From Terriglobia bacterium (GTDB lineage: Bacteria > Acidobacteriota > Terriglobia > Terriglobales > Acidobacteriaceae): 64,000 nt of DNA. The stretch is taken from positions 186,001-250,000 of the forward strand of contig JAIQGE010000007.1 in NCBI GenBank assembly GCA_020072815.1. Direction: 5' to 3'. The translations under genes and the position numbers were made by a program. The notes under the pieces are model-generated. The model did not search any database. It was not told the origin of the DNA and was given only the letters and a program-made list of their open reading frames with translations. Shown here piece after piece: positions 9,692-28,339 of this stretch. The stretch's first letter is position 1; every line of letters begins with the position of its first letter.

Positions 9692-10113
9692 CGCCCGGAG
9701 AGGTCCCCGCCGAAGCAGCTTCCAGGCGGATACTTTCGTCCGCTAGCTGCTCTCCGCGCGTTCTTTTCTTTTCCTGCGAACGGGGTATAAACCAAAAGTA
9801 ACTTGTTTATCATCAACAAGTTTGCGAAAATCTTGTCCAAAGAAGCAAGGAGCCACAGCCGCTTCAGTCGGCTGCCCAAGATTGTTCGGAGAAGAATTTA
9901 TTCGGAGAAGAATTTGGGTTCCTGCGGCGTTCCGTCGTGACCGCGCCGCTCCGCCACTTGAGATTGGTTGTTCCGTCAATTGCGAACCAGATGTCTCAAA
10001 AGTGAGAGTGTGCCTCGGTCTGGCCGGCCGAGCGGGTTGAGCACCCAAAAACCAGGAAAGTGAACGCAGGGGGGTCGTCACTGCTGCCTGATTGCCCGCT
10101 GCGGCATAATTGA
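9692..10113 (+). other. intergenic region upstream of the peptide-importer operon
   Basis: No gene is apparent. A 16-base unit, TTCGGAGAAGAATTTA-like, is repeated in tandem at about 9886-9915. The region should contain the promoter for the operon starting at 10114, but no clear -35/-10 pair could be chosen. Confidence 0.4.
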
Positions 10114-11877
10114 ATGACACCAAGCCTCCAAATCGACGGAAGGAGCTCGGACGCAACCATCTTGACCTCCCTGGACGCAGTCTCCCTGAACACGGGGCCA
10201 TTCCTGCAGGTGCGCGGCCTGTGCGTGGACTACACCGCCGCCAGCGGCAGCATGGTGCACGCGCTGCGCGGCGTGGACGTGGCCATCGCCGAGCAGGAAT
10301 GCGTGGGCGTGCTGGGCGAATCGGGTTCGGGAAAAAGTTCGCTGGCGCAAGCGTTGTTGCGCCTGCTTCCCGCCAACGCCCGCGTCACCGCCGGAGACGT
10401 TCAGTTTCGCGGACGGTCATTGGCGGCGCTATCGCGCGGCGAATTGCGGCGCGTGCGCGGCGCGGAGATCGCGCTGATTTCGCAGGAGCCCGCCCTGGCT
10501 TTGAATCCGGTGTTGCCCCTGGGCCGCCAGATTCAAGACGTCCTGCAGGCGCACTTCAAGCTGGACGAAACCCAGTGCCGCGAGAAAGCCCTGGCCATGC
10601 TGCGCGACGTGGGATTTGACGACCCGGAGCGCGTGCTACGCGCCTATCCCCACCAGCTCAGCGGCGGTGAGCGCCAGCGCGCGGCCATCACCCAGGCGCT
10701 CATCTGCCAGCCGGCCTTGCTCATTGCCGATGAACCTTTGAGTTCGCTGGACGCTGTGACTCAATCTGAAGTCTTGCGGCTGTTGCAGCGCCTGCGTCGC
10801 GAACTGAAGCTGGCCATGCTGTTCATCACCCACGATGCCGGCGTGCTTTCCACACTGGCGGACCGAGTGATCGTCCTGCGCGATGGCCAGGCGGCAGCTT
10901 CCGGCAGCATCGCCGAACTTCGCCGCAACTCCGATCCTTACGTCCGCAGCCTGATGCATCCTGAAGAAACGCTGCATCCTGAAGAAACGCTGCAGCCGGA
11001 AGAAACGCTGCGCGCCGAAAGAACGTTGGCCTTTCCGAGGCCGGCTTCGCGTCTCGCGCCGGGATCAACCAACAACGACGCCGCCACGCCCCTACTGGAA
11101 GTCCTCAGCTTGAGCAAGCAATTCGTTCAGCGCAGCTTTCTCTCCAGCAAAAAGTTTGCGGTGCGTGCGCTCGACAACGTGGACCTGCTGTTGCAAGAAG
11201 GATCGTCAACCGCGGTGATTGGACGGTCGGGTTCCGGCAAATCAACTCTGGCGCGTTGCATCGCCGGCTTTGAGCGCGCCGGCCAAGGTGAAATCCTGTT
11301 TCAAGGCTCAGCGTCGCGGGCATCAACCCCGGAGTTGCGCCGCCAGGTGCAGATGATTTTTCAGGACGCAGGCACCGCGCTGAACCCCGGATTCACTGCG
11401 GCCGAGTTGATTTACGAACCGCTGGTGGTCGCCGGCCGCGGCACAGAACTCGAGCGCCGCCAGCGCGCGGTGCAGTTGTTGGAAGAAGTTGGGCTTGATC
11501 CCGACTGGTACGGCCGGCTGGCGGGCGAATTCAGCGGAGGCCAGCGGCAGCGCTTGGCTCTGGCCCGCGCCCTGGCCGCCGATCCCAAGCTGCTCATCCT
11601 CGACGAATCTTTTTCCGGCCTGGACGTGCCGTTGCAGGCGCAAATGATCAAGTTGCTGCTGGACCTGCAATCGCGTCACGGACTGGCGTATCTGTTTATC
11701 ACCCATGACCTGAATTTCATTTCGCTGTTTGCCCGCGAAGTTGTGGTGATGGATGAAGGCAAAATCGTGGAGCGCACAACGCCGCGACGCATGCGCGAAA
11801 GCGCTGAGCCGGCCACACAATTGCTGGTCCGCGCGGCGGAACGCCTGCATGAGCCCGGCGTGGAGAACCTGGCATGA
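10114..11877 (+). CDS. oligopeptide/dipeptide ABC importer, fused two-domain ATPase (DppD-DppF-like)
   Basis: The protein has 587 residues and two complete ATPase domains in tandem. Domain 1 has Walker A GESGSGKSS at 68-76 and signature LSGGERQR at 182-189. Domain 2 has GRSGSGKST at 370-378 and FSGGQRQR at 473-480. Both have Walker B Asp-Glu motifs (LLIADEPLSS; LLILDESFSG). In most peptide importers these are two genes; here they are one polypeptide. It energises the two permeases encoded next. The ATG has no good ribosome site, and a TTG at 10162 behind GGAAGGAGCT is an alternative start. The gene overlaps the next one by four bases. Confidence 0.9.
   Translation: MTPSLQIDGRSSDATILTSLDAVSLNTGPFLQVRGLCVDYTAASGSMVHALRGVDVAIAEQECVGVLGESGSGKSSLAQALLRLLPANARVTAGDVQFRGRSLAALSRGELRRVRGAEIALISQEPALALNPVLPLGRQIQDVLQAHFKLDETQCREKALAMLRDVGFDDPERVLRAYPHQLSGGERQRAAITQALICQPALLIADEPLSSLDAVTQSEVLRLLQRLRRELKLAMLFITHDAGVLSTLADRVIVLRDGQAAASGSIAELRRNSDPYVRSLMHPEETLHPEETLQPEETLRAERTLAFPRPASRLAPGSTNNDAATPLLEVLSLSKQFVQRSFLSSKKFAVRALDNVDLLLQEGSSTAVIGRSGSGKSTLARCIAGFERAGQGEILFQGSASRASTPELRRQVQMIFQDAGTALNPGFTAAELIYEPLVVAGRGTELERRQRAVQLLEEVGLDPDWYGRLAGEFSGGQRQRLALARALAADPKLLILDESFSGLDVPLQAQMIKLLLDLQSRHGLAYLFITHDLNFISLFAREVVVMDEGKIVERTTPRRMRESAEPATQLLVRAAERLHEPGVENLA
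10957..11028 (+). repeat. in-frame 18-bp tandem repeat in the ATPase linker
   Basis: Four consecutive 18-base units encode HPEETL, HPEETL, QPEETL and RAERTL (residues 282-305) between the two ATPase domains. The first two units are almost identical at the DNA level, which suggests recent slippage expansion. The array should lengthen a flexible acidic linker. Confidence 0.85.
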
Positions 11878-12842
11878 TTCGCTATCTCGCTCTCCGGCTC
11901 GGCCACGGCGTGGTGATTCTGTTCGGCGTGTCCTTGTTGCTGTTTCTCCTGCAGCAAGCGGCTCCGGGCGAGTTCTTCACGGACGCCAAACTGAATCCGC
12001 AGATCTCGGAAGAAACGGTCAAGGCCTTGCGCGCCCAATACGGCATGGACCAACCGCTGCCCAAGCGTTACGCCCGATGGTTGATGTCTGTCGTCAAGGG
12101 TGAGTTGGGATATTCTTTCGCTTACAACGTGTCGGCATCGTCGCTGCTGTGGCCCCGCGCGTTGAACACGCTGCTGCTGACCGTCCCTGCGCTGATCATT
12201 TCTTGGCTGATCGCCGTGCCTCTGGGAGTTCTGTCCGCGGCGTGGCGAGGCGGCTGGCTTGACCGCTTTTTGTCGGCTGGTACCTCGGTCTTGCTGGCCC
12301 TGCCCGATCTTTTGCTGGCTTTGCTGGCGCTGGTGATTGCCATGCGGACCAACAAGTTTCCCGTGGGCGGCATGCATTCCCTCACCGCGCAAGAAATGGG
12401 ATTATGGTCGCGATTCACTGACCTGGGCTGGCACATGGCGCTGCCGGTTGCGGTGATCGTGATCGGTTCGCTCGCGCCCATTCTCCGCCAGGTGCGCGCC
12501 AGCATGAGTGAAGTGCTGGATTCGCCGTTCATGCGCGCGGCGCAAGGACACGGCCTGCGCAAGTTCACTCTGCTGTTCCGCCACGCGCTGCCCGCCGCGG
12601 CAAATCCGCTGATCTCGCTCTTTGGACTCTCCGTTGCCGTGCTGCTCAGCGTCGGACTGCTGGTGGAAGTCGTGATGAGCTGGCCCGGAATCGGGCCGCT
12701 GCTGCTGGAAGCCATTATGGGCCGCGACCTGTTTATCGTGATCGGCGCGGTCATGCTGTCCACGTTGCTGTTGGTGCTCGGCAACCTTTTTGCGGACATC
12801 CTGCTCTATGCCGTGGACCCGCGCATACGGGTGCAAGCATGA
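11874..12842 (+). CDS. peptide ABC importer permease (DppB/OppB family)
   Basis: The protein has 322 residues. An N-terminal helix (VVILFGVSLLLFLLQQAAPGEFF) and five further membrane segments match the DppB/OppB fold. The cytoplasmic coupling loop (RAAQGHGLRKFTLLFRHALP) corresponds to the EAA motif that docks with the ATPase. The start ATG overlaps the ATPase stop in the ATGA arrangement, and the 3' end overlaps the next permease in the same way. This indicates translational coupling and equal production of the inner-membrane subunits. Confidence 0.9.
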   Translation: MIRYLALRLGHGVVILFGVSLLLFLLQQAAPGEFFTDAKLNPQISEETVKALRAQYGMDQPLPKRYARWLMSVVKGELGYSFAYNVSASSLLWPRALNTLLLTVPALIISWLIAVPLGVLSAAWRGGWLDRFLSAGTSVLLALPDLLLALLALVIAMRTNKFPVGGMHSLTAQEMGLWSRFTDLGWHMALPVAVIVIGSLAPILRQVRASMSEVLDSPFMRAAQGHGLRKFTLLFRHALPAAANPLISLFGLSVAVLLSVGLLVEVVMSWPGIGPLLLEAIMGRDLFIVIGAVMLSTLLLVLGNLFADILLYAVDPRIRVQA

Positions 12843-13867
12843 AGCGCTCAACCAAACTCGCGTGGGCCACCTGGTTCCTGGCGGTCTTACTCCTGGTGGT
12901 CATCTTTGCCGGCTTCTTTGCGCCATACAGCTATGACACGCAGGACCGTGACCATCCTTACGCCCGGCCATCGCGCGTGCATTTTGTGGATGGCCAAGGT
13001 AAATGGCACATCCGCCCATTCGTCTTCGCGACAAAAAATCGCGAAGGCAGCCTGACGGAGTACCAGGAAGACCTATCGCGGATTTATCCCGTAAGGCTCT
13101 TTGTCGCTGGAGATTCGTACAAAGTACTTGGGATCTTCCGCGGTCACACGCATCTGTTCGGCGTCGCCGCCCCCGCGTGCATCTTCCTGCTGGGAGCAGA
13201 CGGTTTTGGCCGCGACCAGTTTTCGCGCATGCTGTACGGCGGTCAGGTATCGCTGTTTGCCGGCATTCTGGCCGCGGTTTTTTCCGCAGCCGCGGGGCTG
13301 TTCCTGGGGATGGTCGCTGGAATGTTCGGCCGTCCGCTGGATGACATCATCATGCGCGTGGGCGAAATCTTCATCGCGCTGCCCTGGCTGTACCTGCTCA
13401 TCTCTGTGCGCGCGTTTCTTCCTTTGCAGATGAGCGCGGTGGCGGCGTTCACTTTGGTGGTGATGGTGATCGGCCTGGTCGGCTGGGGACGTCCCGCGCG
13501 CCTGGTGCGCGGCATTGTGCTGAGCGCGCGCGAACGCAATTTCGTTCTGGCGGCGCGCGGATTTGGCGCCGGCAAGTTCTACCTGATGCGCCGCCACATC
13601 CTGCCCGCGGCCATGGGCGTTGTGCTCACGCAGATGGCGCTGCTGGTGCCTTTGTTTATGATGGCGGAAGTTACTCTTTCGTATCTGGGGCTTGGTGTGG
13701 GCGAACCGTTTCCCAGTTGGGGCAACATGCTGGCCAACGCACAGCAGTTTCACGTAATTTCATCTTATTGGTGGATGTTATTGCCGGGTCTGGCTCCGGC
13801 GCCGGTCTTTTTGGCATGCCAGGCCCTGGCCGATGTGTTTCAGGAAAAACTGAAAACGGCAGTCTAG
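12839..13867 (+). CDS. peptide ABC importer permease (DppC/OppC family)
   Basis: The protein has 342 residues. After the first membrane helix (LAVLLLVVIFAGFFAPYSYD) comes a periplasmic segment of about 90 residues that is longer than in the smallest DppC proteins. The ABC permease core follows, with the coupling loop AARGFGAGKFYLMRRHILP. It pairs with the DppB-like protein to form the channel for peptides. It overlaps the preceding gene by four bases and is followed after 25 bases by the solute-binding protein. Confidence 0.9.
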   Translation: MKRSTKLAWATWFLAVLLLVVIFAGFFAPYSYDTQDRDHPYARPSRVHFVDGQGKWHIRPFVFATKNREGSLTEYQEDLSRIYPVRLFVAGDSYKVLGIFRGHTHLFGVAAPACIFLLGADGFGRDQFSRMLYGGQVSLFAGILAAVFSAAAGLFLGMVAGMFGRPLDDIIMRVGEIFIALPWLYLLISVRAFLPLQMSAVAAFTLVVMVIGLVGWGRPARLVRGIVLSARERNFVLAARGFGAGKFYLMRRHILPAAMGVVLTQMALLVPLFMMAEVTLSYLGLGVGEPFPSWGNMLANAQQFHVISSYWWMLLPGLAPAPVFLACQALADVFQEKLKTAV

Positions 13868-13892
13868 ATTTTTTTGTGACGGAGTAAATGGG

Positions 13893-15650
13893 ATGCCTGA
13901 GACGATCAAGCGGACCGCACTATGTGCACTAGCCGGACTGGCTTTGGCGGCAGCTTTCTGCTCGCCTGCGGTTGGTCAAGACGACATGCTTCGCCCGCCT
14001 GCGGAAACCGGACGGCAGGGCGGACGTTTGGTTGTCGCCCAGTCATCTGAACCCAAAACCCTCAATCCAGTTACCGCTCTGGACCAGCCGTCGCGCGACG
14101 TGATTCGCCGTCTGACGGCCGATCTGGTCCACATTGAGCGCGACTCGCAGAAGACCGTCCCGGCGCTAGCCAAATCCTGGACCGCCACGCGCGACGGCAA
14201 GAGCCTTACCGTGCAGCTTCGACGCGGCCTGCGATTTTCTGACGGCGCTCCTTTTGATGCCGACGACGTTGTCTTCTCCTACAAGCTCTATCTCGACGAG
14301 AAAATACATTCGCCGCAGCGCGACCTGCTGATCGTCGCCGGCCAGCCCATGCGGGTGGAGAAGCTCGGGCCGTATTCGGTCCGCTTCTCCTTTGCCGCTC
14401 CCTACGCCGTGGCCGAACGAGTGTTTGACAGCCTGGCCATCCTGCCGCGTCACCTCTTGGAAAAGGACTATCAGGAAGGTGGAATCGCCAAAGCCTGGAC
14501 CCTGGCCACATCGCCCGACAAAATTGCCGGACTCGGTCCTTTCCGGCTCAAACAGGTGGTCCCTGGCGAGCGAATCGTCCTGGAACGTAATCCCTATTAT
14601 TGGAGAAAGGACGCGAAAGGCCAGAAGCTGCCGTATCTGGACGAACTGGTCTTCCTCACCGTGCCCAGCCGCGACGCACAAGTGGCGCGCTTCCAGGCGG
14701 GTGAGACCCAGGCCATCAGCCCGCTCAGCGCGGAAAATTTTGCCGCCCTCGAACCGGAGCAGCAGGCCCGTCACTACAAGCTGTTCGACGTTGGTCCCGG
14801 CATGGAATACAACTTTCTTCTGTTCAATTTGAATGCCGGTCTGGAAAGCAAGCTTCCGGTGGTCGCCCGCCGGCAAAAGTGGTTTCTTGATCCGCGTTTC
14901 CGCCAGGCGGTGTCCGCAGCCGTGGACCGCGCGGCGCTGTTGCGGCTGGTGTATCGCAACCGTGGGGCGGCGCTGGCCACCAACGTCACCGGCGGCAACA
15001 AGCTTTGGATCAATTCAGCGCTGAAACCTACAGAACACTCTGAAGCCGCGGCGCGCAAGCTCCTGCAGGCCGCTGGCTTCTCCTGGAATCGAGACGGCGG
15101 GTTGCTCGATTCCTCGGGGCAGGCGGTGGAGTTCAGCATTTTGGTTAGCTCCAGCAACGTCCAGCGCAGCCAGATGGCGACGTTAATTCAGGACGACTTG
15201 AAAAAACTGGGGATGAACGTACACGTAGTGGGACTGGAGTTCCGCTCCATGGTGGACCGCGTTTTGCAGTCGCACGACTACGAAACCGCGGTGATGGGGC
15301 TGGGCAGCGGCGACGCCGATCCCAACTCCGACATGAGCTTTTTGCTTTCCAGCGGACAAAGCCATCTCTGGAGTCTCGATGAAAAGCAGCCGGCCACGCC
15401 CTGGGAAGCTGAGATTGACAAACTGATGCAGCAGCAGCTGGTCACCGTGAATTATCGCCAACGCAAGAAACTGTATGACCGGGTGCAGGAGGTCATGGCC
15501 GCGGAGATGCCGGTGGTCTTCCTGGCCAGCCCGAGTATCCTGGTGGGAGCGTACCAGGACTTGGGTAATGTGCGCCCAGCTATAATTGATAACTATATTC
15601 TCTGGAACGCAGACGAACTTTTTTGGCACACCCCCACTGGAAAACATTGA
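13893..15650 (+). CDS. peptide ABC importer solute-binding protein (SBP family 5)
   Basis: The protein has 585 residues with GGAG at 13881 before the ATG. A signal segment (LAGLALAAAFCSPAVGQ) directs it to the periplasm; the Cys there does not sit in a good lipobox. The mature part shows the family 5 pattern: PKTLNPVTALDQPS, LRRGLRFSDGAPFDADDVVFSY, ERNPYYWR, DPRFRQAVSAAVDRAALL. It would capture peptides and deliver them to the permeases encoded upstream. The sigma-factor gene starts only six bases after its stop, so transport and regulation genes are probably on one transcript. Confidence 0.9.
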   Translation: MPETIKRTALCALAGLALAAAFCSPAVGQDDMLRPPAETGRQGGRLVVAQSSEPKTLNPVTALDQPSRDVIRRLTADLVHIERDSQKTVPALAKSWTATRDGKSLTVQLRRGLRFSDGAPFDADDVVFSYKLYLDEKIHSPQRDLLIVAGQPMRVEKLGPYSVRFSFAAPYAVAERVFDSLAILPRHLLEKDYQEGGIAKAWTLATSPDKIAGLGPFRLKQVVPGERIVLERNPYYWRKDAKGQKLPYLDELVFLTVPSRDAQVARFQAGETQAISPLSAENFAALEPEQQARHYKLFDVGPGMEYNFLLFNLNAGLESKLPVVARRQKWFLDPRFRQAVSAAVDRAALLRLVYRNRGAALATNVTGGNKLWINSALKPTEHSEAAARKLLQAAGFSWNRDGGLLDSSGQAVEFSILVSSSNVQRSQMATLIQDDLKKLGMNVHVVGLEFRSMVDRVLQSHDYETAVMGLGSGDADPNSDMSFLLSSGQSHLWSLDEKQPATPWEAEIDKLMQQQLVTVNYRQRKKLYDRVQEVMAAEMPVVFLASPSILVGAYQDLGNVRPAIIDNYILWNADELFWHTPTGKH

Positions 15651-15656
15651 AGCTGA

Positions 15657-16253
15657 ATGGACGACAACGCCAAAGAGATATCCATACCCACGCCTAAGGA
15701 CGCAGCGGCGGAAGATGAGCGGCTGGTACAGGAGTGCTTGAACGGCGATGAGCGGGCGTGGAACCGTCTCATTGAGAAATACAAACGGCTGATCTACTCC
15801 GTTCCCGTCAAGTACCGGATGAGCCCTGACGACGCCTCCGACGTCTTTCAGAACGTGTGTGTGGACCTGTTCACCAATCTTTCCAAACTGCGGAAGGTTG
15901 AGTCCCTGCGTTCCTGGCTGATCACCGTGGCCACCCACAAGTGTTTTCATTTCAAGAAACAGCAGCGCGGCCAGGACGTGGAGCTGGACGCCATGGAGCA
16001 GGAGATGGCGGAAGAAATCGCCCCGGCGCCGGAAGTGCTGCAGGAAATCCAGGAAGAACAGGCGGTGCGCGACGCCATCGTCAAGCTCTCGCCGCGGTGC
16101 GCTCAACTGGTCCAGCTCCTCTTCTTTGAGCAGCCGCCGGTGCCTTACAACGAAGTGGCGCAGAAACTGGGACTGGCCACCGGGTCCATCGGCTTTATCC
16201 GCGGCCGCTGCTTGAATCGCCTGCAAAAGATCCTGGCGGAGCTGGGGTTCTGA
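15657..16253 (+). CDS. RNA polymerase sigma-70 family factor (ECF-like)
   Basis: The protein has 198 residues. Region 2 reads ERAWNRLIEKYKRLIYSVP and DDASDVFQNVCVDLFTNL, then LRSWLITVATHKCFHFKKQQ. Region 4 is a helix-turn-helix (PYNEVAQKLGLATGSIGFIRGR). A linker rich in Glu separates them, and region 3 is absent, as in ECF factors. It would direct core polymerase to a specific promoter set. The gene lies six bases after the peptide-binding protein and two bases before the TPR-CHAT protease, an arrangement implying that the three are made together. No classical membrane anti-sigma gene is adjacent. Confidence 0.85.
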   Translation: MDDNAKEISIPTPKDAAAEDERLVQECLNGDERAWNRLIEKYKRLIYSVPVKYRMSPDDASDVFQNVCVDLFTNLSKLRKVESLRSWLITVATHKCFHFKKQQRGQDVELDAMEQEMAEEIAPAPEVLQEIQEEQAVRDAIVKLSPRCAQLVQLLFFEQPPVPYNEVAQKLGLATGSIGFIRGRCLNRLQKILAELGF

Positions 16254-16255
16254 TC

Positions 16256-19126
16256 GTGGACCGCATTGGCAGTCCGGCGGAGCTGGAACCATGGATCGTC
16301 GAAGCCTCAGAGCTTTCTGATCCCGCGCAGCGTCGCGCTCTGCTGGCGCAGCGCCCGGACTTTCTCAGCCGCGAAACTTTCGACCAACTGTATCGCGGGG
16401 TCATCGCCAACCTTCGCGCCAACCTGGAGCGGTCAGAGCGCCTGGCGGAAGCCTGCCGCTGGATCGCCGTGGAACTCAACGATCCTTACATTTCCGCCAA
16501 GTGCGCCCGCGCCACGGGCCACGTGGTCTCGCTCAAGGGCAACTATCGCGAGGCCATCAAGGAGTATGAGACCTCCATTGCCGGGTTTGACGCGCTGGGG
16601 TCTGATTTTGACGCGTCGCTGACCATCAATGGAGCGCTGCAAAGCCTGATTTACGATGGTCAATATGAACGGGCTCTGGCCCTGGGCGCCAAGGCCCGCG
16701 CGGTGTTCGCGGCGCACGGCGACCAATTGCGACTGGCACGACTGGACAGCAACGTTGCCAACATCTATTACCGCCAGGACCGCTTCCGCGAAGCCCAGGA
16801 GCTTTATGAGAGCGCGTACCGCGACTTCCTCACCTGCGGCGAGCCCATGGACATCGCCATCGTCCTCAGGAACCTTGCGGTTTGCTACATTAGCCTGAAC
16901 GAGTTCGCGCTCGCCCAGGAAACCTACCAACTGGCGCGGCGGCATTGTGAACAGCATGGCTTTTCGCTGCTGGTGGCGGAAGCCGATTACAACATTGCTT
17001 ATCTCCACTATCTCAAGGGCGAATACCTGCGCGCTATCGAGATGTATGACCAGACGCGCAACTTCTGTCTCACCCTGGGCGACAAATATCATCAGGCGCT
17101 CTGCGATCTGGACCAATCCGAAATCTACCTGGAGCTGAACCTGACCGAAGGCGGCACCGAGCTGGCACAACAGGCGTTTCTGGCGTTCCGCCAACTGGGC
17201 ATGCGTTATGAGGCGGCCAAAGCGGCCACGTTTTCCGCCATCGCCGTCAGCCAGCAGGGGCATTATCGCCAGTCGCTGCGCGTCTTTGATCAGGCGCGCG
17301 CGCTGTTTATCGAAGAGCTGAACCGGCTCTGGCCGGCGCTGATTGATCTCTACAAGGCGCTGGTGCTTTACGAGGCCGGACAAGACGACGAAGCTGAAGA
17401 CCTGGCGCTTTCGGCGCTGGAGTACTTCGGTCCGTCCTTGCTGCCGGCCAAAGCCGCGCTGTGCGAATTGCTGCTGGCGGCCATTGAAGTCCGCGGCTCA
17501 GACGCCGACGAAGCCCGCCGTTATTGCAGCTCTGCGCTGTCCCGCTTGCTGCATATTGATTCCCCGGCCACTTACCAGGCGTACTTCATGCTGGGCCAGG
17601 CGGAAGAAACCAGCGGCAACACTGAGCTGGCCCGCCAGGCGTATGAGAAGGCCTATCACAAGCTGGAAGACCTGCGCAGCCACCTGGGCAAAGAAGAGCT
17701 GAAGATCGCGTTTCTCAAGAACAAACTCACGGTTTACGAAGGATTGGTCGTAACTTCTCTGGCCGTGCACTCGCTGGCCTGCACCGAGCACGACACGTTC
17801 GAATACATAGAGCAGGCCAAATCGCGCAGTCTGGCGGACTTGATCGCTTTCCGCGCTTCCACGCTCACCGGCCGCACGCTGGAACAGTCGCCGGCCATGG
17901 CCCAGTACCGCGACCTTCGCCAAAAACTGAATTGGACCTATCACCAAATCGAGTTGCAGGAACTCAGTCCGGAAGGGGACACGCACCAAGCGCGCATCGC
18001 GCAGCTGCGTCTTCAGGGCCGCGAATACGAAGACGCCCTGGTCAAGGCCTTTTCTCACCTGCAAAGCACTGACGTTGAGTTCGCCAATCTGCAGAATGCC
18101 AAGACTATTTCCGCCGCCGAGCTGCAGCGCGTCCTGCCCCCCAATACCCAGATGTTGGAGTTCTACCTGGCGCGCAACCAGTTTTACGTATGCCTGGCTT
18201 CGCGCGACCGCCTGAAGATTCTGCCGGTGGCCGATGCCGGCGCCGTGCGCACCAAGCTCCGCCTGTTGCAGTTGCAACTGGCGAAATTCCGCCTGGGCGA
18301 TGACTACATCAAACCCCGCGAAAAGTCGCTCTTACAGGCCACGCAAGCCCATCTGGAGGAACTGTACGATCTGCTCATCCGGCCCATCCGCAGCCAGCTC
18401 CAGGCGGCGAATCTGGTGATAGTTCCCCACAGCTTTCTGCACTACTTGCCGTTCCATGCATTGTCGGACGGTCGCCGCTGTCTGATTGATGATTTTTCCA
18501 TTTCGTATGCTCCCAGCGGCAGCATCTTTGCTATTTGCCAGGAAAAGGCTTTGCCGGAAGGACCGGGAGAGACCCTGGTGCTGGCCGTTCCCGACGCGCG
18601 CGCTCCCTATATAGAAGAGGAAGGCCGGTTCGTTGCCGCCAGCATGGACAACGCGCGGCTGTTCCTGGGCGAAGAAGCCACCGAGGAGCGTTTGCGCACC
18701 TACGGTTCGCAGAGCCGCTACATTCATATCGCTACGCACGGCTATTTTCGCCAGGACAATCCCATGTTCTCCTCCATCCGGCTGGGCAACTCGCTGCTGA
18801 GCTTGTTTGACCTTTACCAGTTGCAGTTCAATGCGGAACTGGTCACCCTGAGCGGCTGCGGGACCGGGATGAACGTGGTCATTGGCGGTGATGAACTGAT
18901 CGGCTTGGTGCGCGGGCTGTTGTACGCCGGCGCCCAGACCCTGATGGTGAGTTTGTGGGAAGTTCACGATCAAAGCACGGCTGAATTCATGAGGGATTTC
19001 TATGCCGCGTATCGCGAACTGCCCAACAAGGCACAAGCCTTGCAGCGTGCGGTTGCTAATCTAAGGCAAAAGCGGCCTCACCCTTACTATTGGGCGGCGT
19101 TTTGCTTGGTTGGTAAGTTTTCTTAA
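16256..19126 (+). CDS. TPR-CHAT domain protein, predicted caspase-like cysteine protease
   Basis: The protein has 956 residues with a GTG start two bases after the sigma-factor stop. Residues ~1-500 are helical TPR repeats that form a protein-binding scaffold. A coiled linker follows to about 620. The C-terminal CHAT domain carries the caspase-type dyad: His828 in IATHGYF and Cys868 in LSGCGTG, then GLLYAGAQTLMVSLW and PYYWAAFCLVG. Both catalytic residues are present, so it is probably active. CHAT proteins are known in separase, gingipain-like and CRISPR-associated proteases, where TPRs choose or gate the substrate. Here the substrate is unknown; candidates are the sigma factor upstream or the CxxC protein downstream. 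There is no signal peptide, so it should be cytoplasmic. Confidence 0.85.
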   Translation: MDRIGSPAELEPWIVEASELSDPAQRRALLAQRPDFLSRETFDQLYRGVIANLRANLERSERLAEACRWIAVELNDPYISAKCARATGHVVSLKGNYREAIKEYETSIAGFDALGSDFDASLTINGALQSLIYDGQYERALALGAKARAVFAAHGDQLRLARLDSNVANIYYRQDRFREAQELYESAYRDFLTCGEPMDIAIVLRNLAVCYISLNEFALAQETYQLARRHCEQHGFSLLVAEADYNIAYLHYLKGEYLRAIEMYDQTRNFCLTLGDKYHQALCDLDQSEIYLELNLTEGGTELAQQAFLAFRQLGMRYEAAKAATFSAIAVSQQGHYRQSLRVFDQARALFIEELNRLWPALIDLYKALVLYEAGQDDEAEDLALSALEYFGPSLLPAKAALCELLLAAIEVRGSDADEARRYCSSALSRLLHIDSPATYQAYFMLGQAEETSGNTELARQAYEKAYHKLEDLRSHLGKEELKIAFLKNKLTVYEGLVVTSLAVHSLACTEHDTFEYIEQAKSRSLADLIAFRASTLTGRTLEQSPAMAQYRDLRQKLNWTYHQIELQELSPEGDTHQARIAQLRLQGREYEDALVKAFSHLQSTDVEFANLQNAKTISAAELQRVLPPNTQMLEFYLARNQFYVCLASRDRLKILPVADAGAVRTKLRLLQLQLAKFRLGDDYIKPREKSLLQATQAHLEELYDLLIRPIRSQLQAANLVIVPHSFLHYLPFHALSDGRRCLIDDFSISYAPSGSIFAICQEKALPEGPGETLVLAVPDARAPYIEEEGRFVAASMDNARLFLGEEATEERLRTYGSQSRYIHIATHGYFRQDNPMFSSIRLGNSLLSLFDLYQLQFNAELVTLSGCGTGMNVVIGGDELIGLVRGLLYAGAQTLMVSLWEVHDQSTAEFMRDFYAAYRELPNKAQALQRAVANLRQKRPHPYYWAAFCLVGKFS

Positions 19127-19170
19127 GGAAATAAGTAAAGCTTTGTAAAGTCTGAGATATCTATATTTTT

Positions 19171-19257
19171 AGCCCTGCTTCTGACTCTTGTATTACAGAA
19201 GCAGGCTCATCCGTCGACTGCTAAAAAGGGGAACACAGACCCGGAAGCTGTGTTCCC
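19171..19257 (+). terminator. two hairpins between the CHAT gene and the CxxC-protein gene
   Basis: The first hairpin pairs AGCC.TGCTTCTG (19171-19183) with CAGAAGCAGGCT (19195-19206). The second has a perfect ten-base stem, GGGAACACAG (19229-19238) with CTGTGTTCCC (19248-19257), followed by TTTGGATTT. They may end the long operon or act as a leader or processing structure for the gene at 19288. The T tract is weak. Confidence 0.55.
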
Positions 19258-19287
19258 TTTGGATTTAATAGAGACGAAAAAGAAGAT

Positions 19288-19923
19288 ATGCCTCAAGCCG
19301 CGCGCCATTTCGATATCACTGAGTGGGCTGATTACGCCAGGAACCTGGCTCCGCCCGAGCAACAAGGGCAGATGTTGGCCCATCTTGCCGCTGGATGTTC
19401 CAAATGCGGAAAGATTGAGCAGCTATTTCTGAAATTTGCAAAAGTCTGCGCCCGTGAAGGCGCATACCAGATCCCGGAGAGCACAGAGCGGCAGGTGAAA
19501 GCTCTGATCAGCATAGGAAGGGAGCCGCGTCGCTCCCCGCTGCAGCGCATGTTCGCCTCTCTGGTGTATGACAGTTTGAATGATCCCCAGCCGGTAGGAG
19601 TCCGCGGAACGCACCAGATCAGCCGCCAAGTGCTGTTCCATGCCGGCGAGTACTCGGTTGATCTGCGCTTTGAGCATGAAAAAGGCTCGGCCAGCATGGT
19701 TCTGGTAGGACAGATCTCCAACCAGAACGCCCCCGAGGATCCCATGGCCCACCTGCCGGTGATCCTGTTGGCAGGCCAGCGCGAATTGGCCCGCTCCATG
19801 AGCAACTCATTCGGTGAATTTCAGATGGAGTACGTCCCCGATACTGATCTCCGTCTGCTGGTGCCGCTGGAATCTCACGGGCAAGAATTAGAAGTCTTGC
19901 TGGGGCAGGCGCCGCAGGCTTAA
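19288..19923 (+). CDS. small cytoplasmic protein with CxxC knuckle, possibly regulatory
   Basis: The protein has 211 residues with AAGAAG just before the ATG. The N-terminal ~70 residues (TEWADYARNLAPPEQQGQM, then HLAAGCSKCGKIEQL) have the look of a zf-HC2-like anti-sigma zinc finger: an acidic helix followed by a His and a CxxC pair. The rest is a predicted beta domain (RQVLFHAGEYSVDLRFEHEK, MVLVGQISNQ). No membrane segment or signal peptide is present. Its place between an ECF-sigma/CHAT pair and two secreted subtilases suggests a soluble anti-sigma or adaptor, which is an inference from position and the Cys/His cluster. It ends 44 bases before the first subtilase. Confidence 0.65.
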   Translation: MPQAARHFDITEWADYARNLAPPEQQGQMLAHLAAGCSKCGKIEQLFLKFAKVCAREGAYQIPESTERQVKALISIGREPRRSPLQRMFASLVYDSLNDPQPVGVRGTHQISRQVLFHAGEYSVDLRFEHEKGSASMVLVGQISNQNAPEDPMAHLPVILLAGQRELARSMSNSFGEFQMEYVPDTDLRLLVPLESHGQELEVLLGQAPQA

Positions 19924-19967
19924 GTTTTTTGGAGCCAAAAGACAATCTGTAAGTGGAAGTTCTAGAC

Positions 19968-21410
19968 ATGAGGACACTGCGTCTTTTCGTCATTTTCGGC
20001 GCGTTGCTGGCGCTCGCGTTACCCGCGACGGCACAGACCAGCTACGTCCTCACCATCCCCGCCACCGTTGACGTCCAGAGTTTCGCAGCCAGCCACGGCC
20101 TGACCGTGGTCCGGGAAATCCATGATGGGACGAACTGTGTCTATGTTGTGACTTCCGCCTCCTCGGATGTGACGGGCGTTGAAACCGAAGTGGAAACAGA
20201 TGTTCGGGTCACCAGCTTTGAGGCCAACGCGCCCATCTCCCTGCCCGAGACCCTGAACGGCCTGACCGGTCCAGTCCTGACCCAGTCTACCGCTGGGATT
20301 CTTGAAACTCTGCCCGGTCGCACCCTGGTCACGTTTTTCGGCAGCACGGTACCCAGCAACTACATTACACAGACCGCCACCACGATTATTCGGCTCCCGG
20401 ACGCGCGCGCGGCGTATCCAGTCACCGGCGCTGGGATCATCGCCATCATTGATACCGGCGTAGACCCGCAGCATCCCGCTCTGGCCGGCGTCCTGGTGCC
20501 GGGGTTCGATTTCGTCCACAACACCAGCGGCATTCCTTCTGAGTTCAGTGACGCCGCCCTGATCAACCAGTCCACGGCCGGGATCCTGGAACAGTCCACC
20601 GCCGGCATTCTGGAGCAGTCCACCGCCGGCATTCTGGAAGCACAGAACGTAGTTCCCTTGAATTCGTACACGGCCGCCATTCTGGACCAGTCCACGGCCG
20701 GGATTCTGGAAGGTTTGGTTCCGCAGGATTTCGGGCATGGCACCATGACCGCGGGTGTTGCGCACCTGATTGCGCCTACGGCGAAGATCATGCCGCTCAA
20801 AGCCTTCACGATTGACGGCATGGCCACCGCCAGCGACATCATCCGCGCTATCTATTTTGCGGCTGACAACGGCGCCAACGTCATCAGCATGAGCTTCAGC
20901 ATGCCGGCCAATTCGCCCAGCCTGCAGGCTGCAATTCAGTACGCGCTGGGCAAGAACATCGTAGTGGTTGCCTCATCCGGCAATGACGGCCTGAAGACCC
21001 TGGTTTATCCGGCAAGCATTGGCGGAGTACACGGCGTAGGCTCTACCACCAACGCTGATGGCCGCAGCGCGTTTTCCAATTATGGCTCCGGAGTTGTGCT
21101 CCTGGCTGCGCCCGGTGAAGGCGTGATTACCACCTATCCCGGCGGCAACTACGCTGCGGGATGGGGGACTTCTTTTAGCGCTCCCATGGTGGCTGGAGCG
21201 GCTTCGCTGGTCCTCCAGGCGCGTCCGGCCAGCAAGCCGGGTGACGTGCTCAACGCTCTTTCCAAGGCCAAGCAGATCAGCGATATGGGCTACGGCCGTA
21301 TTGATCTCTATCAGGCCCTCAACAGCGTCATAGGCGGCTCGTCATCAATCTCTGGGACATCCGGAAGCAACACCAGCGGCAGTACCAGCGGTGGCTCCTC
21401 CAAGCCGTAA
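19968..21410 (+). CDS. secreted subtilisin-like serine protease with QSTAGILE array (copy A)
   Basis: The protein has 480 residues from the ATG at 19968 (GGAAG upstream; a GTG 15 bases earlier is less likely because it would precede the signal peptide MRTLRLFVIFGALLALALP). After a ~80-residue prodomain, the S8 triad is Asp162 (IIDTGVD), His257 (GHGTMTAG) and Ser402 (GTSFSAP). The octapeptide QSTAGILE occurs at 106-113, just after the prodomain, and again at 201-208, 209-216, 217-224 and 241-248, in the segment between Asp and His. The end is a Ser/Gly/Thr-rich tail. It is probably exported and active. A close relative follows at 21847. Confidence 0.9.
   Translation: MRTLRLFVIFGALLALALPATAQTSYVLTIPATVDVQSFAASHGLTVVREIHDGTNCVYVVTSASSDVTGVETEVETDVRVTSFEANAPISLPETLNGLTGPVLTQSTAGILETLPGRTLVTFFGSTVPSNYITQTATTIIRLPDARAAYPVTGAGIIAIIDTGVDPQHPALAGVLVPGFDFVHNTSGIPSEFSDAALINQSTAGILEQSTAGILEQSTAGILEAQNVVPLNSYTAAILDQSTAGILEGLVPQDFGHGTMTAGVAHLIAPTAKIMPLKAFTIDGMATASDIIRAIYFAADNGANVISMSFSMPANSPSLQAAIQYALGKNIVVVASSGNDGLKTLVYPASIGGVHGVGSTTNADGRSAFSNYGSGVVLLAAPGEGVITTYPGGNYAAGWGTSFSAPMVAGAASLVLQARPASKPGDVLNALSKAKQISDMGYGRIDLYQALNSVIGGSSSISGTSGSNTSGSTSGGSSKP
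20568..20711 (+). repeat. 24-bp coding minisatellite encoding QSTAGILE units (subtilase A)
   Basis: Six octads in strict register: QSTAGILE three times, AQNVVPLN, SYTAAILD, then QSTAGILE. The second and third DNA units differ by a single base, indicating recent duplication. The single extra copy after the prodomain is at 20283-20306. The array is in the segment between catalytic Asp and His. Confidence 0.9.
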
Positions 21411-21846
21411 TTCCGCCCCTTCACGTTGACCTTCTCCGCGCTTTTGTGACCACTTTTGCTCACCTGCACAAATTTATTAGCGTCTTTAATCCACTGGTAA
21501 CCTTAGGACACTTGAACCGGCGAAAAAAGGCCAATCTTGGATCAGTCCACCTTCCCCAAAGTCTTCCGGCAAGCCCAGCGTCTGCTGACGATATGTCAAC
21601 AAACCATGCATAAGACCTTTAAAAACATAAGCAATCAGTGGTTATTCGTAAAATACTTTAACCGCTGATTTCTAGTTGCAGTTTCGTCTCCAAAGCGTCC
21701 CTGAGTTTGCCCAACATTAAAGCCGAAACAAGGGCTGGACACTGTGGCTATACTGTCCTCGCATCAAGGCCAGCCTTCTGAGAAGGCAGGGTTTTACCTT
21801 TCGGCGTCGCGACGGAACGACCGCCGGAAAAGAAGATTGACGGAAA
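21411..21846 (+). other. intergenic region between the two subtilase genes
   Basis: This 436-base stretch is more AT-rich than the genes, especially at 21590-21670. No gene or strong terminator is seen. It probably carries a separate promoter for the second subtilase. Confidence 0.4.
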
Positions 21847-23244
21847 ATGTTGAAACACAGATTATTGCTAACTATTTTGCAGGCTGTTTGCTTGCTGGGG
21901 AGTGCCTCCCTGCTGGCCCAGGACAAGTTTGTCCTGGTGACCTCGCCATCCAAAGTGAGCGATGTGTGCGGCAAACATGGCTTGACACAAGTTTCCCAGG
22001 TCTCCAGCAGCTCCTCCGCCGGGGTTTACCTGGTTTCCACCTTTTCCGTTGATCCCACGATAGCTACCGATTCCTCCGTCACCAGTTTCGAGCCCAACCG
22101 GGCCCTGGGCGTACCTGAGCTCTCCGGCGCTACCATCGCAAGCCTGACCCAATCCACCGCCGGAATCCTTGAGACCCTGCCGGGACGGACAGTGGTCAGC
22201 TACTTCGGCGCCAGCGTACCGAGTAACTATGTGCAACAGACAGCGGCCGCGATCGTCCGCCTGTCAGACGCGCAGGGCTCCAAGCTTAGCGGCACAGGAA
22301 TTGTGGTTGCGATTATTGATACCGGCGTGGACCCCAGCCATCCTTTGCTGAGTCCGGTGCTCGTCCCTGGATTTGATTTCACGCGTAACCTGAGCGGCTC
22401 AGCGTCTGAGCTGCTTGATCTGGACCCAACGGTGGCCGCGTCCTTGACCCAGTCCACCGCGGGCATCCTGGAAGGCCAGAACCTGGTCCAGTTAAATGCG
22501 TCCACGGTGGCCATCCTGACCCAGTCCACCGCCGGCATCCTGGAAGGCATCGTTCCCAAGGCCTTCGGCCACGGCACCATGACGGCGGGTTTGGTCCACC
22601 TGGTCGCGCCTGGCGCAAAGATCATGCCGCTGAAGGCGTTCAGCGCAGACGGCAACTCTGACCTGTTTAACATTATCCGCGCCATCTACTACGCTGCCGA
22701 CCACGGGGCCAACGTCATCAGCATGAGCTTTGAGATCACCCAGAGCTCGCCTGCGCTGCAGAACGCCATCCAGTACGCCTTGAGCAAGAATGTGGCGATT
22801 GTGGCTGCCTCCGGCAACGATGGCCAGCAGATTCTGGTATATCCCGCCGCTTACGGCAATGTGATCGGCGTAGGTTCCACCAGCAACCAGGACGCCAAGA
22901 GCGTCTTTACCAACTTCGCCACCAACGCTATTTACGTAGCGGCTCCGGGAGAAGGCGTAATCACCTCGTATCCTGGCGGCAATTACGCTGCGGGATGGGG
23001 GACTTCGTTCAGCGCCCCTCTGGTGGCCGGCGAAGCGGCGATGCTGCTGCAGGCGAAGCCGACAATGCATCCTGGTGACGTCGCCAACGCGGTATCTCAT
23101 GCCCAGGCAGTGCAGCAGATGGGCCACGGACGAATTGATCTCTGCCAGGCGTTGATCGGCTTGAACCTGGGACCGTGTCCCGCGAGCTCAACCACAACTT
23201 CCAGCACAAGTGGCAGCACGTCGGGCGGGTCTACCGCGCCGTGA
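21847..23244 (+). CDS. secreted subtilisin-like serine protease with QSTAGILE array (copy B)
   Basis: The protein has 465 residues. A signal peptide (MLKHRLLLTILQAVCLLG, cleavage after SLLAQ) leads to a prodomain and the S8 triad: Asp158 (IIDTGVD), His242 (GHGTMTAG) and Ser387 (GTSFSAP). QSTAGILE is at 102-109, 202-209 and 226-233, with GQNLVQLN and ASTVAILT between the last two. This is the same octad plan as in copy A but with two fewer units. The proteins match along most of their length, so they are tandem duplicates with divergent prodomains. The tail is Ser/Thr/Gly-rich. A strong terminator follows. Confidence 0.9.
   Translation: MLKHRLLLTILQAVCLLGSASLLAQDKFVLVTSPSKVSDVCGKHGLTQVSQVSSSSSAGVYLVSTFSVDPTIATDSSVTSFEPNRALGVPELSGATIASLTQSTAGILETLPGRTVVSYFGASVPSNYVQQTAAAIVRLSDAQGSKLSGTGIVVAIIDTGVDPSHPLLSPVLVPGFDFTRNLSGSASELLDLDPTVAASLTQSTAGILEGQNLVQLNASTVAILTQSTAGILEGIVPKAFGHGTMTAGLVHLVAPGAKIMPLKAFSADGNSDLFNIIRAIYYAADHGANVISMSFEITQSSPALQNAIQYALSKNVAIVAASGNDGQQILVYPAAYGNVIGVGSTSNQDAKSVFTNFATNAIYVAAPGEGVITSYPGGNYAAGWGTSFSAPLVAGEAAMLLQAKPTMHPGDVANAVSHAQAVQQMGHGRIDLCQALIGLNLGPCPASSTTTSSTSGSTSGGSTAP
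22450..22545 (+). repeat. 24-bp coding repeat encoding QSTAGILE octads (subtilase B)
   Basis: Four octads in register: QSTAGILE, GQNLVQLN, ASTVAILT, QSTAGILE. This matches the last four octads of copy A unit by unit. A further copy lies at 22150-22173. Confidence 0.9.
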
Positions 23245-23268
23245 GCCGCTCGCGGATTCGACAAAATC

Positions 23269-23295
23269 AGCCCCGCCGCATGGCGGGGCTTTTTC
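23269..23295 (+). terminator. rho-independent terminator after subtilase B
   Basis: Perfect nine-base stem AGCCCCGCC (23269-23277) with GGCGGGGCT (23282-23290), loop GCAT, followed by TTTTT. It ends the protease cluster. Confidence 0.9.
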
Positions 23296-23711
23296 ACGCA
23301 CTTTCCCGGCGTTGGAGCAGCGTTGTCCGGGGGATTACGCGAATCTCAGAATGTGGCGCCCACTTGCGCTTAGCGGCGGAAGAAGCTGTCAGCTTTTCCA
23401 GCCGCGGCTTACTTACGGACATACAGCAGCATCGTGCTAACGGACAAGAGTGAGAGCGCTTTCGCGCAGTGGCGAATGGCTCCCGGCCCCGCTGCGAAAG
23501 CCAATAGGTATTGCGCCATCGCATCATTTACAATTTTTTACAACTCAATCGCCCAAAACATAAGAAGATTCATGTTGCCAAAGGCTGCCGCCCGGTGAGT
23601 TTGCGCCCGGACTTGTTTCCCGAAGCTTTTTGGATCAAAGGCGGCCTGTCACACGCGCGGCGCCACCCGTAGCGATGGAAGAGTTCTAAAGCTTCTGCCC
23701 GCTCCTTAAAC
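23296..23711 (+). other. intergenic region upstream of the glycosyltransferase pair
   Basis: No coding signal is convincing on either strand. The run around 23528-23545 (TTTACAATTTTTTACAACTC) is AT-rich and could be part of a promoter for the downstream pair. Confidence 0.4.
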
Positions 23712-27284: not shown

Positions 27285-27584
27285 ATGTTACTAAGCGAAG
27301 GCGAATTCATCGGGGCATCAGTTCCGCAACACTTGTTCCTGATTCGCGAAACCTGCAAACAATGCCAGCACCCCGCGCACTTCACGATCCTCATTGTCCT
27401 GAGCGCGAGCAGCGCACAGGCCAGGAAAGTTCCGCTCTGCAAGAGCCATTGGGAGCAGGCGATAAAGGAAGTTCCTACAAATCCAGTTCCTACAAATCCT
27501 ATGAAGAGACCCGAATATCCGCTGGAGTTGGCGAAGCTCATTCCCTTTCCGGAACCTGATAGTGAGAGGGCGGGATGTCAATGA
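27285..27584 (+). CDS. CxxC-x24-CxxH mini-protein (putative zinc-binding), paralogue 1
   Basis: The protein has 99 residues with a strong GGAGGAAA ribosome site. Cys24 and Cys27 (CKQC) plus Cys52 and His55 (CKSHW) form a likely four-ligand zinc site. The C-terminal third has a duplicated VPTNP unit. The protein at 28323 has Cys at exactly positions 24 and 27 and then CxxH, so the two are paralogues around the PilZ gene. I know no named family. It is the first gene of the operon and overlaps the PilZ gene by ten bases. Confidence 0.65.
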   Translation: MLLSEGEFIGASVPQHLFLIRETCKQCQHPAHFTILIVLSASSAQARKVPLCKSHWEQAIKEVPTNPVPTNPMKRPEYPLELAKLIPFPEPDSERAGCQ

Positions 27585-28339
27585 GAGTTTCTGCGGCACC
27601 ACTTACAGCACTGCTTTCTTCCGAGGATCGAGCAATCCAGTCCCTTTGCGGAAGGCTTCTTGAATCGAACGGATTCAATGTGACCCTGGCGGCGAATGCG
27701 GAAATGGCTGCCCGGCTATGCGGCAACGCGACGTTTGACCTGGCCATCTATGACCAGGATTGCTCCGGCGTGCTGGAACTGGCCGGCTCGCGCATGCCGA
27801 TGAGACCGCCCCGCATAGTCATTGGCCTGATTGGATCTGGAAAGATGAATGAGGTCACGGGCAAGCGCATCCAGTTCATGGTGCAAAAGCCCTTTACCAG
27901 CAATATCTTGGCGAGAACCATCAGGGCTGCTTGTGGTCCCATTACATGGGAAAGGCGATTGAATTTTCGGCACCACGTTTCTATCGCCACTCTGTCCTGC
28001 AAATGGACCGATCAAGGTGAAACCCAGCCTCTGCAGGCTGCAACGATCGTCAACATAAGCGGGACCGGCCTTTGTCTGCAGACGGGAGAAATGCTGCCGC
28101 AGGGTGCGGCGCTTGAAATCCGTTTCCCGGTGCCCGGCGGCGAGATCATACAAGTTTCCGGCAACGTCATCTGGTCTCACCTTTCGGGCCGTGCCGGGAT
28201 TTGTTTTACCAACATTGGTCCAGAACAGCACTTCCAAGCCTGGCTGAACTCACTGTTGTGTGAACACGCATCGCGTTGGAGCGATGAAAAAAGAGGAGAG
28301 CACGCGTCGATTGGAGTGGCCCATGCAACTAGGCAGTAA
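27575..28339 (+). CDS. pseudo-receiver plus PilZ domain protein, predicted c-di-GMP sensor
   Basis: The protein has 254 residues and a GAGAGGGCGGG site. The N-terminal ~120 residues (LTALLSSEDRAIQSLCGRLL, FDLAIYDQDCSG, MVQKPFTSNIL) have a receiver fold but a degraded phosphorylation site. The C-terminal PilZ part has RRLNFRHHVS (c-di-GMP-binding Arg motif in altered form) and NISGTGLCLQT (the [DN]xSxxG motif). Such proteins pass c-di-GMP levels to motility, polysaccharide or transcription machinery. It overlaps both flanking genes for the CxxC...CxxH mini-proteins, which suggests joint function. Confidence 0.75.
   Translation: MSMRVSAAPLTALLSSEDRAIQSLCGRLLESNGFNVTLAANAEMAARLCGNATFDLAIYDQDCSGVLELAGSRMPMRPPRIVIGLIGSGKMNEVTGKRIQFMVQKPFTSNILARTIRAACGPITWERRLNFRHHVSIATLSCKWTDQGETQPLQAATIVNISGTGLCLQTGEMLPQGAALEIRFPVPGGEIIQVSGNVIWSHLSGRAGICFTNIGPEQHFQAWLNSLLCEHASRWSDEKRGEHASIGVAHATRQ

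Follow-up and report, generated by a model that had tools for sequence, protein, structure and literature searches.

In Craspase, the tetratricopeptide repeat (TPR)-CHAT protease Csx29 cleaves Csx30, an inhibitor of the extracytoplasmic function (ECF) sigma factor CASP-sigma (PMC10028731), and Csx29 orthologues cut at non-conserved sites (PMC11106740). The TPR receptors of RRNPPA systems sense peptides that extracellular proteases release, in some cases from propeptides with repeats, and that are then imported (PMC11343458). Here, we analyzed a gene cluster within the window, a 64,000-nucleotide stretch from the 5.3 Mb genome of a Terriglobia bacterium (G000), in which nine genes encode a predicted peptide importer, an ECF-type sigma factor, a TPR-CHAT caspase-like protease, a CxxC protein, and two exported subtilases. 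Both subtilases carry identical copies of an octapeptide, QSTAGILE, which is a candidate signal for the cluster. Neither these repeats nor a promoter-like element at 19160-19193 had been noticed in the original prediction for this locus.

The subtilases are encoded at 19953..21410 (subtilase 1; Peptidase_S8, 3.1e-36) and 21847..23244 (subtilase 2; Peptidase_S8, 1.8e-38), on the forward strand like the other genes of the cluster, and both are candidate signal precursors. QSTAGILE occurs five times in subtilase 1 and three times in subtilase 2, with varied codons. Copy 1 (20283..20306) lies at the junction of the prodomain and catalytic domain of subtilase 1, tandem copies 2-4 (20568..20639) fall within the insertion that separates the catalytic Asp from the catalytic His, and copy 5 (20688..20711) stands immediately ahead of the catalytic-His motif; copies 6 (22150..22173), 7 (22450..22473), and 8 (22522..22545) belong to subtilase 2. 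A degenerate DNA pattern for the octapeptide has eight matches in the whole genome, all within these two genes. Matches to this pattern in G194, G173, and G217 were discarded as lying outside module subtilases, the one in G173 being antisense in a gene for a peptide-binding protein (SBP). Decayed octapeptides, SYTAAILD at 20664-20687 and ASTVAILT at 22498-22521, each stand directly ahead of the last intact copy, and decayed copies stay decayed across the genus.

We annotated 90 stretches from the genomes of relatives with profiles built from the window genes. Equivalent sites in the relatives' subtilases hold other words, including QSTTSILD (L047), QSVTPILE (L048), QSTSTVLE (L102), QSTGVILD (L051, L053, and L055), QSTVGVVD (L052), and QRTVAVLD (L058). 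Genomes of the window's own genus use QSTAGILE, QSTTSILD, QSVTPILE, QSTSTVLE, and QSTAGILD. Distant families carry QTSQAFID, QISHAFLD, QRSLAFID, QRSQAFID, QRSVAFVD, QKGAAFVD, PRTIVFID, and PRTFVFID, and a second, independent collection of 84,980 species added QETTPILD, QHTAAMLD, and QSLQPILE. The common form is Q-S-T-x-x-[IVF]-[LVI]-[DEN], with the middle varying most. Paired subtilases of one genome share one word (window, L047, and L101-L104). Copies per subtilase range from 2 to 18; QSTASVLN is present in 17 copies (L072) and QSTGAILD in 15 (L050). The subtilase with the latter word (L050:10075-11976) also has one copy of QSTGVILD, and its arrays, split by a basic spacer, RKQFGSARGIHRNQ, are reminiscent of processed multi-copy pheromone precursors.

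Copies within a protein mostly agree. A motif-selected set comprised 245 copies, with 34 words, in 74 subtilases that each have two or more. All copies are identical within the protein in 66 of these, and the first copy equals the last in 70/74, compared with a mean of 4 when copies are shuffled among proteins. Between neighboring copies, 719 codon differences are synonymous and 18 nonsynonymous, whereas random changes are expected to be 26% synonymous. We repeated the count on every octamer, with no motif filter, to check for ascertainment bias. Identity to the last copy was bimodal, with 158 octamers matching at 8/8 positions and 26 at 5-7/8, and differences were again mostly synonymous (773 versus 51 nonsynonymous). 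Gene conversion or recent duplication was rejected as the source of the identical copies, being disfavored by the many synonymous differences between them. The copies thus have a long history, are kept the same inside a genome, and change as a set from one species to another, as expected if all must fit one partner. We consider it very likely that the octapeptides have been selected to match each other and a partner.

These counts also bear on a nutritional account of the locus. Subtilases are classically paired with an Opp/Dpp importer in nutrition, and both are present here; the subtilases could digest protein and the importer take up the resulting peptides, with the sigma factor and CHAT protease in a regulatory role and the repeats incidental. 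Incidental repeats, however, would not survive 719 synonymous changes identical and then change together between species, and we find such an operon scarcely credible.

Copies occupy two kinds of site, the prodomain-catalytic domain junction and the Asp-His insertion of the catalytic domain. This insertion is missing from distant clades, which carry tandem copies at the junction only (QISHAFLD, QRSLAFID, and PRTIVFID). An AlphaFold model of subtilase 2 has a mean predicted local distance difference test score (pLDDT) of 86; the copy-bearing blocks score 53-67 and the catalytic domain elsewhere mostly >90. In this model, the octapeptide blocks look like accessible linkers. Subtilase 1 has a hydrophobic N-terminus that ends ALPATAQ, and its start may instead be the ATG at 19968.

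The octapeptide covaries with one part of the TPR-CHAT protein. For loci with a complete component set, we correlated differences in the word with differences in each protein, with shared background removed (partial Mantel). In this comparison, two partial r values stood out, 0.42 for the TPR portion of the CHAT protein and 0.48 for the subtilase, and the CHAT domain, sigma factor, CxxC protein, SBP, and permeases showed no covariation with the word in this first set. A sliding window placed the TPR signal at about residues 41-400 (16376..17455), a stretch of the TPR array whose divergence tracks the octapeptide and which is a candidate receptor surface. Using other 8-residue segments from neighboring proteins as the null, r for this stretch in the first set was 0.57, exceeded by 0/306 null segments, and r for the CHAT domain was 0.04 (102/306). 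A second set comprised 29 further loci with CHAT proteins <95% identical to those of the first, and its windows were chosen beforehand. Here, r was 0.42 for TPR 41-400 (5/178 null segments), 0.32 for TPR 81-180 (2/178), and -0.19 for the CHAT domain; the subtilase catalytic region did not covary (0.12; 72/275), nor did the sigma factor, CxxC protein, or permeases. The profile appears the same in both sets, a modest replication of the TPR covariation. Covariation at SBP residues 441-500, found by scanning (4/355 null segments), was set aside when it did not replicate (30/234). The TPR array is probably the partner of the octapeptide.

A competing explanation is that the octapeptides are maturation sites, with each subtilase cutting its own linkers on activation and the repeats co-evolving to fit one active site, while the sigma factor and CHAT protease sense something else. 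Subtilases do autoprocess, and such sites would suit the places where the copies are found, the end of the prodomain and a flexible insertion of the catalytic domain, with low local model confidence. Left unexplained, however, are the covariation with the TPR array of a separate cytoplasmic protein and the arrays of 16-18 copies, and the subtilase catalytic region lacked covariation in the second set. We regard maturation sites as improbable.

The genes themselves are linked well beyond the window. CxxC homologues were found in 26/80 genera sampled in the order and 32/210 in the phylum. All eight gene types (four importer genes, sigma factor, CHAT, CxxC, and subtilase) are present at 30 of the 82 CxxC-bearing loci, and another 11 have the sigma factor, CxxC, CHAT, and subtilase genes with no importer gene nearby; owing to contig ends, both counts are lower bounds. 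Since these 11 loci keep the other four without a linked importer, we take the sigma-CxxC-CHAT-S8 set to be the core and the importer a frequent partner. This core arrangement also occurs in other families (L086, L098, and L137). Gene order is shuffled while the partners are kept: the CxxC-S8 genes precede the importer in L049, the halves of the cluster are divergent in L111 and L114, the importer is divergent in L082 and L094, and L116 also has a permuted or divergent layout with its parts still together. The second collection yielded 80 CHAT loci, every one in a record labeled as belonging to Acidobacteriota (Terriglobia, Bryobacterales, Solibacter, Acidiferrales, and Thermoanaerobaculia), and near them are CxxC at 69, S8 at 67, SBP at 70, and sigma factor at 60. 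Recurring over many genera and the phylum, the arrangement is not due to chance, and the genes almost certainly form one functional system.

Several loci depart from this pattern. An apparent CHAT-CxxC fusion in L082 was rejected because the joined frame crosses a stretch of N, and a long frame in L100 likewise proved not to be a CHAT fusion. L067 and L068 are orphan CxxC-S8 pairs without CHAT or sigma factor; G103 has QSTVGVVD at both of its loci (L054 and L067), and QSTAGVID is common to L068 and L070 in G145. L086 and L087, whose subtilase has no detectable repeats, carry two sigma genes in tandem. An HD-domain gene (HD_5, HD-GYP-like) directly follows the S8 gene in 26 loci (e.g., L052:13321-14001), hinting at a cyclic-di-GMP output; it is not at that place in the window, which has a PilZ gene at 27575-28339.

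In the window, the importer genes come first. A fused peptide-importer ATPase with two ABC halves (10114..11877; Pfam ABC_tran 4e-58, two stretches) is followed by permease 1 of OppB/DppB type (11874..12842; BPD_transp_1 1.3e-32), permease 2 of OppC/DppC type (12839..13867; BPD_transp_1 and OppC_N), and the SBP (13893..15650; SBP_bac_5 1.4e-79). In many relatives, gene maps show the ATPase halves as two separate genes. L118 (G695), from the window's own genus, combines the word QSTVAVLD with split ABC genes typical of another clade, and its whole module has possibly been replaced horizontally. The sigma factor (15657..16253; Sigma70_r2 6.9e-11, TIGR02937 2.3e-23) and the CHAT protein (16256..19126) complete the run. 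Four-base overlaps join the ATPase to permease 1 and permease 1 to permease 2, and the gaps that follow are 25 bases (permease 2-SBP), 6 (SBP-sigma), 2 (sigma-CHAT), 161 (CHAT-CxxC), and 29 (CxxC-subtilase 1). An Rfam search of 9600-24000 gave no match.

These data bear on several claims of the original prediction. The genes that it listed, with their four-base overlaps and their 25-, 6-, and 2-base gaps, agree with our open reading frames and Pfam matches, and its proposal of one functional system is borne out by phylum-wide linkage in several gene orders. Its inclusion of the importer holds in part, as a frequent neighbor (30/82 full sets) rather than an obligatory one (11/82 core loci without it nearby). 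It had also called for a gene-order comparison in relatives, naming a sigma-CHAT pair apart from the importer and subtilases as evidence against a single system; in that comparison the cluster recurs, and the core is sometimes unlinked from the importer.

The CHAT protein has N-terminal TPRs and a strong CHAT match (7.6e-63), with the protease domain at 18347..19117 (Pfam, residues 698-954). Its catalytic cysteine is Cys868, and both Cys868 and His828 are unchanged in 71/71 relatives. The closest PDB sequence is that of the TPR-CHAT protein 7zoq. Four further strong CHAT proteins are encoded at unlinked positions in G000 (C12:90944, C1:599704, C1:608144, and C9:38954), and the importer-subtilase set is not beside them. 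The original prediction had offered a defense or cell-death role as its alternative. In such a module, a trigger, peptide or other, would make the CHAT protease cut cell proteins, and the part of the sigma factor would be limited to a stress response. CHAT proteases do act in Craspase immunity, and the nearest solved structures are TPR-CHAT proteins. Such a role, however, gained no support here: PADLOC gave only weak generic matches (subtilase, IetS, and TPR models), and a search of 50,697 phage records found no counterpart of the CxxC protein. The cluster also shows stable, long-term chromosomal synteny that includes an importer, and a promoter-like element stands ahead of the anti-sigma and precursor genes. 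We consider it very improbable.

The CxxC protein (19288..19923) is a predicted soluble anti-sigma factor of the zinc type. It has no Pfam match at E 1e-3, the zinc-finger anti-sigma model included, and no NCBIfam match. An N-terminal histidine and H-x(2-4)-C-x2-C are present in 75/83 relatives, the window form being H-x4-C-x2-C, and we take this motif to resemble that of zinc-type anti-sigma factors. The window protein has no membrane segment. Its AlphaFold model (pLDDT 88) has helices at residues 10-77 followed by strands that form a C-terminal beta domain, and a fold search against the PDB gave no match at E 1e-3. Gene adjacency and the predicted fold make it a candidate cytoplasmic anti-sigma factor for the partner sigma factor.

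Ahead of the CxxC and subtilase genes lies a conserved promoter-like element (19160..19193; consensus CCTATATTTTT-N14-CCCTTATT), supported by its spacing and by a matrix. Hexamers of the CCTATATTTTT type are strongly enriched ahead of CxxC (TATATT in 43/83 versus 1.7 expected), and the element spacing is fixed at 25 nt in 26 relatives. A matrix search of 1.6 Mb found 45 sites, 38 of them directly ahead of CxxC, and none in the reversed sequence. In appearance, it is an ECF promoter dedicated to the unit of anti-sigma and subtilase genes. Other matches in the window's own genome, including one ahead of dnaK, were dismissed as about as many as chance predicts. The element also precedes a divergent gene of ~430 aa beside the importer (weak glycosyltransferase-28 match; L106:13277, L109:1311, and L112:17550), a candidate second target. 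After the element, the CHAT-CxxC gap (19127-19290) contains stable hairpins (z -3.1), possibly a terminator or attenuator; within the window's genus, conservation of these is partial (GAAGCAGGCTCATCCGTCGACTGCTAA, found in L047, L101, L102, and L104).

In the circuit that we propose, the secreted subtilases would also serve as precursors, each with several copies of a species-specific octapeptide, here QSTAGILE, held in flexible linkers, and proteolysis by the subtilases, on themselves or on each other, would release it. The Opp/Dpp-type importer would carry the octapeptide into the cytoplasm, where binding by the N-terminal TPR array would activate the CHAT protease. The active protease would cut the CxxC protein and thereby free the ECF sigma factor, which would transcribe the CxxC and subtilase genes from the conserved element. 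With the sigma factor driving these genes, the signal would promote its own precursor and reset its own inhibitor. We infer each step, from release and import to binding, CHAT activation, CxxC cleavage, and sigma specificity, as well as the range of the signal, between cells or in the producer's own envelope. On balance, we lean toward the full chain as stated.

Parts of this chain were anticipated by the original prediction. Its identification of Cys868 as the CHAT cysteine agrees with the invariance noted above, and the anti-sigma look that it saw in the CxxC protein is strengthened by the zinc motif and the lack of a membrane segment. Its suggestion of a peptide-gated CHAT protease gains from the covariation of the TPR array with a subtilase-borne peptide and from the Craspase precedent (PMC10028731). 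It had the subtilases make peptides; this needs revision, as they do not just cut other proteins but themselves carry the candidate peptide in identical, species-specific copies.

Several points weigh against the circuit. Octapeptide release through subtilase cleavage is assumed. Outer-membrane crossing is unexplained, so the peptide may act only in the producer's periplasm. Importer linkage is not constant among the relatives' loci, and the importer's covariation signal (SBP) failed to replicate in the second set. Phylogeny can inflate partial Mantel correlations; our null segments came from neighboring proteins, and significance in the second set is modest. The element is assigned to the linked sigma factor by position and conservation. 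Finally, the repeats are not universal, because the module subtilase has no detectable repeats in L086, L087, L089, L091, L093, L096, L136, L137, and L075.

One alternative keeps the components and changes the sender: the same cell would release and re-import the peptide, reporting envelope secretion or subtilase activity, and word diversity would be drift kept in step by receptor coevolution. The subtilase and importer meet in the Gram-negative periplasm, there is usually one circuit per genome, and the evidence for matched evolution fits equally well. Set against this are the variety of words in closely related genomes, a pattern typical of pheromones that undergo diversifying selection, and the presence of up to 18 copies, which suggests dosage of an exported signal. 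Self-sensing of this kind seems unlikely to us, though less so than maturation sites; cell-to-cell signaling itself we put forward only tentatively.

In soil, Acidobacteria rank among the most abundant bacteria, yet the open-access literature that we searched yielded no account of a peptide signaling system in them. If the proposed circuit is correct, the phylum gains a peptide language whose words are predictable from sequence and can be synthesized, with dozens of words (pherotypes) readable directly from genomes. It would also explain the role of a TPR-CHAT protease outside CRISPR and suggest a chromosomal circuit related in logic to Craspase. With some reservation, we suggest that the cluster may represent an undescribed class of bacterial peptide pheromone across Acidobacteriota, in which the repeated words lie in a secreted subtilase and a TPR-CHAT receptor cuts an anti-sigma factor to release the ECF sigma factor.

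The architecture appears new as a whole and familiar in its parts; we count the system as new because the whole matches no known system that we found in open-access papers. It resembles Craspase/DiCASP (type III-E) in placing a TPR-CHAT protease with intact CHAT His/Cys (71/71 relatives) beside an ECF sigma factor and its inhibitor, a candidate in the window, the sigma gene lying 2 bases upstream of CHAT and beside it in relatives too. In the published Craspase model, the protease cuts the inhibitor and so releases the sigma factor (PMC10028731). The window CHAT protein matches the Csx29 model (E 1.5e-15), with a score of 57 bits that is below the 300-bit cut-off. In contrast to Craspase, there is no Cas7-11 (gRAMP), CRISPR RNA or CRISPR array, or Csx30/Csx31 beside it; the surrounding genes read by Pfam are the importer, sigma factor, CxxC, S8, glycosyltransferases, and PilZ. 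The window instead has a zinc-motif anti-sigma candidate, a presumed octapeptide trigger within a subtilase, and a long N-terminal TPR array.

The RRNPP(A) systems of Bacillota (Rap-Phr, PlcR-PapR, NprR-NprX, and ComR-XIP) combine a protease-released short peptide, Opp import, and a cytoplasmic TPR reader. The window has a predicted Opp/Dpp-type transporter in its operon and a TPR array that appears to covary with the octapeptide in two sets. Its host, however, belongs to a Gram-negative phylum, and its candidate receptor joins TPRs to a CHAT protease rather than being a helix-turn-helix regulator or Rap phosphatase. There is no small secreted propeptide gene beside the receptor; the candidate peptide lies inside subtilases of 465-485 aa, so that the precursor is itself a protease, and the output would be an anti-sigma/ECF pair. 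Precursors of the yeast alpha-factor type hold tandem identical copies of a species-specific peptide, whereas the window copies are embedded in a predicted active protease. Removal of an anti-sigma factor by a protease frees the ECF sigma factor in zinc-type anti-sigma (ZAS)/RpoE-type pairs (RseA-DegS and RsiW), as proposed here. The ZAS motif H-x3-C-x2-C has its counterpart in H-x(2-4)-C-x2-C of the CxxC proteins (H-x4-C-x2-C in the window), but the window candidate is predicted to be soluble, and a CHAT enzyme of the cytoplasm would remove it, in place of membrane proteases. By these feature comparisons, the window system belongs to neither the Craspase nor the RRNPPA family and joins the logics of both.

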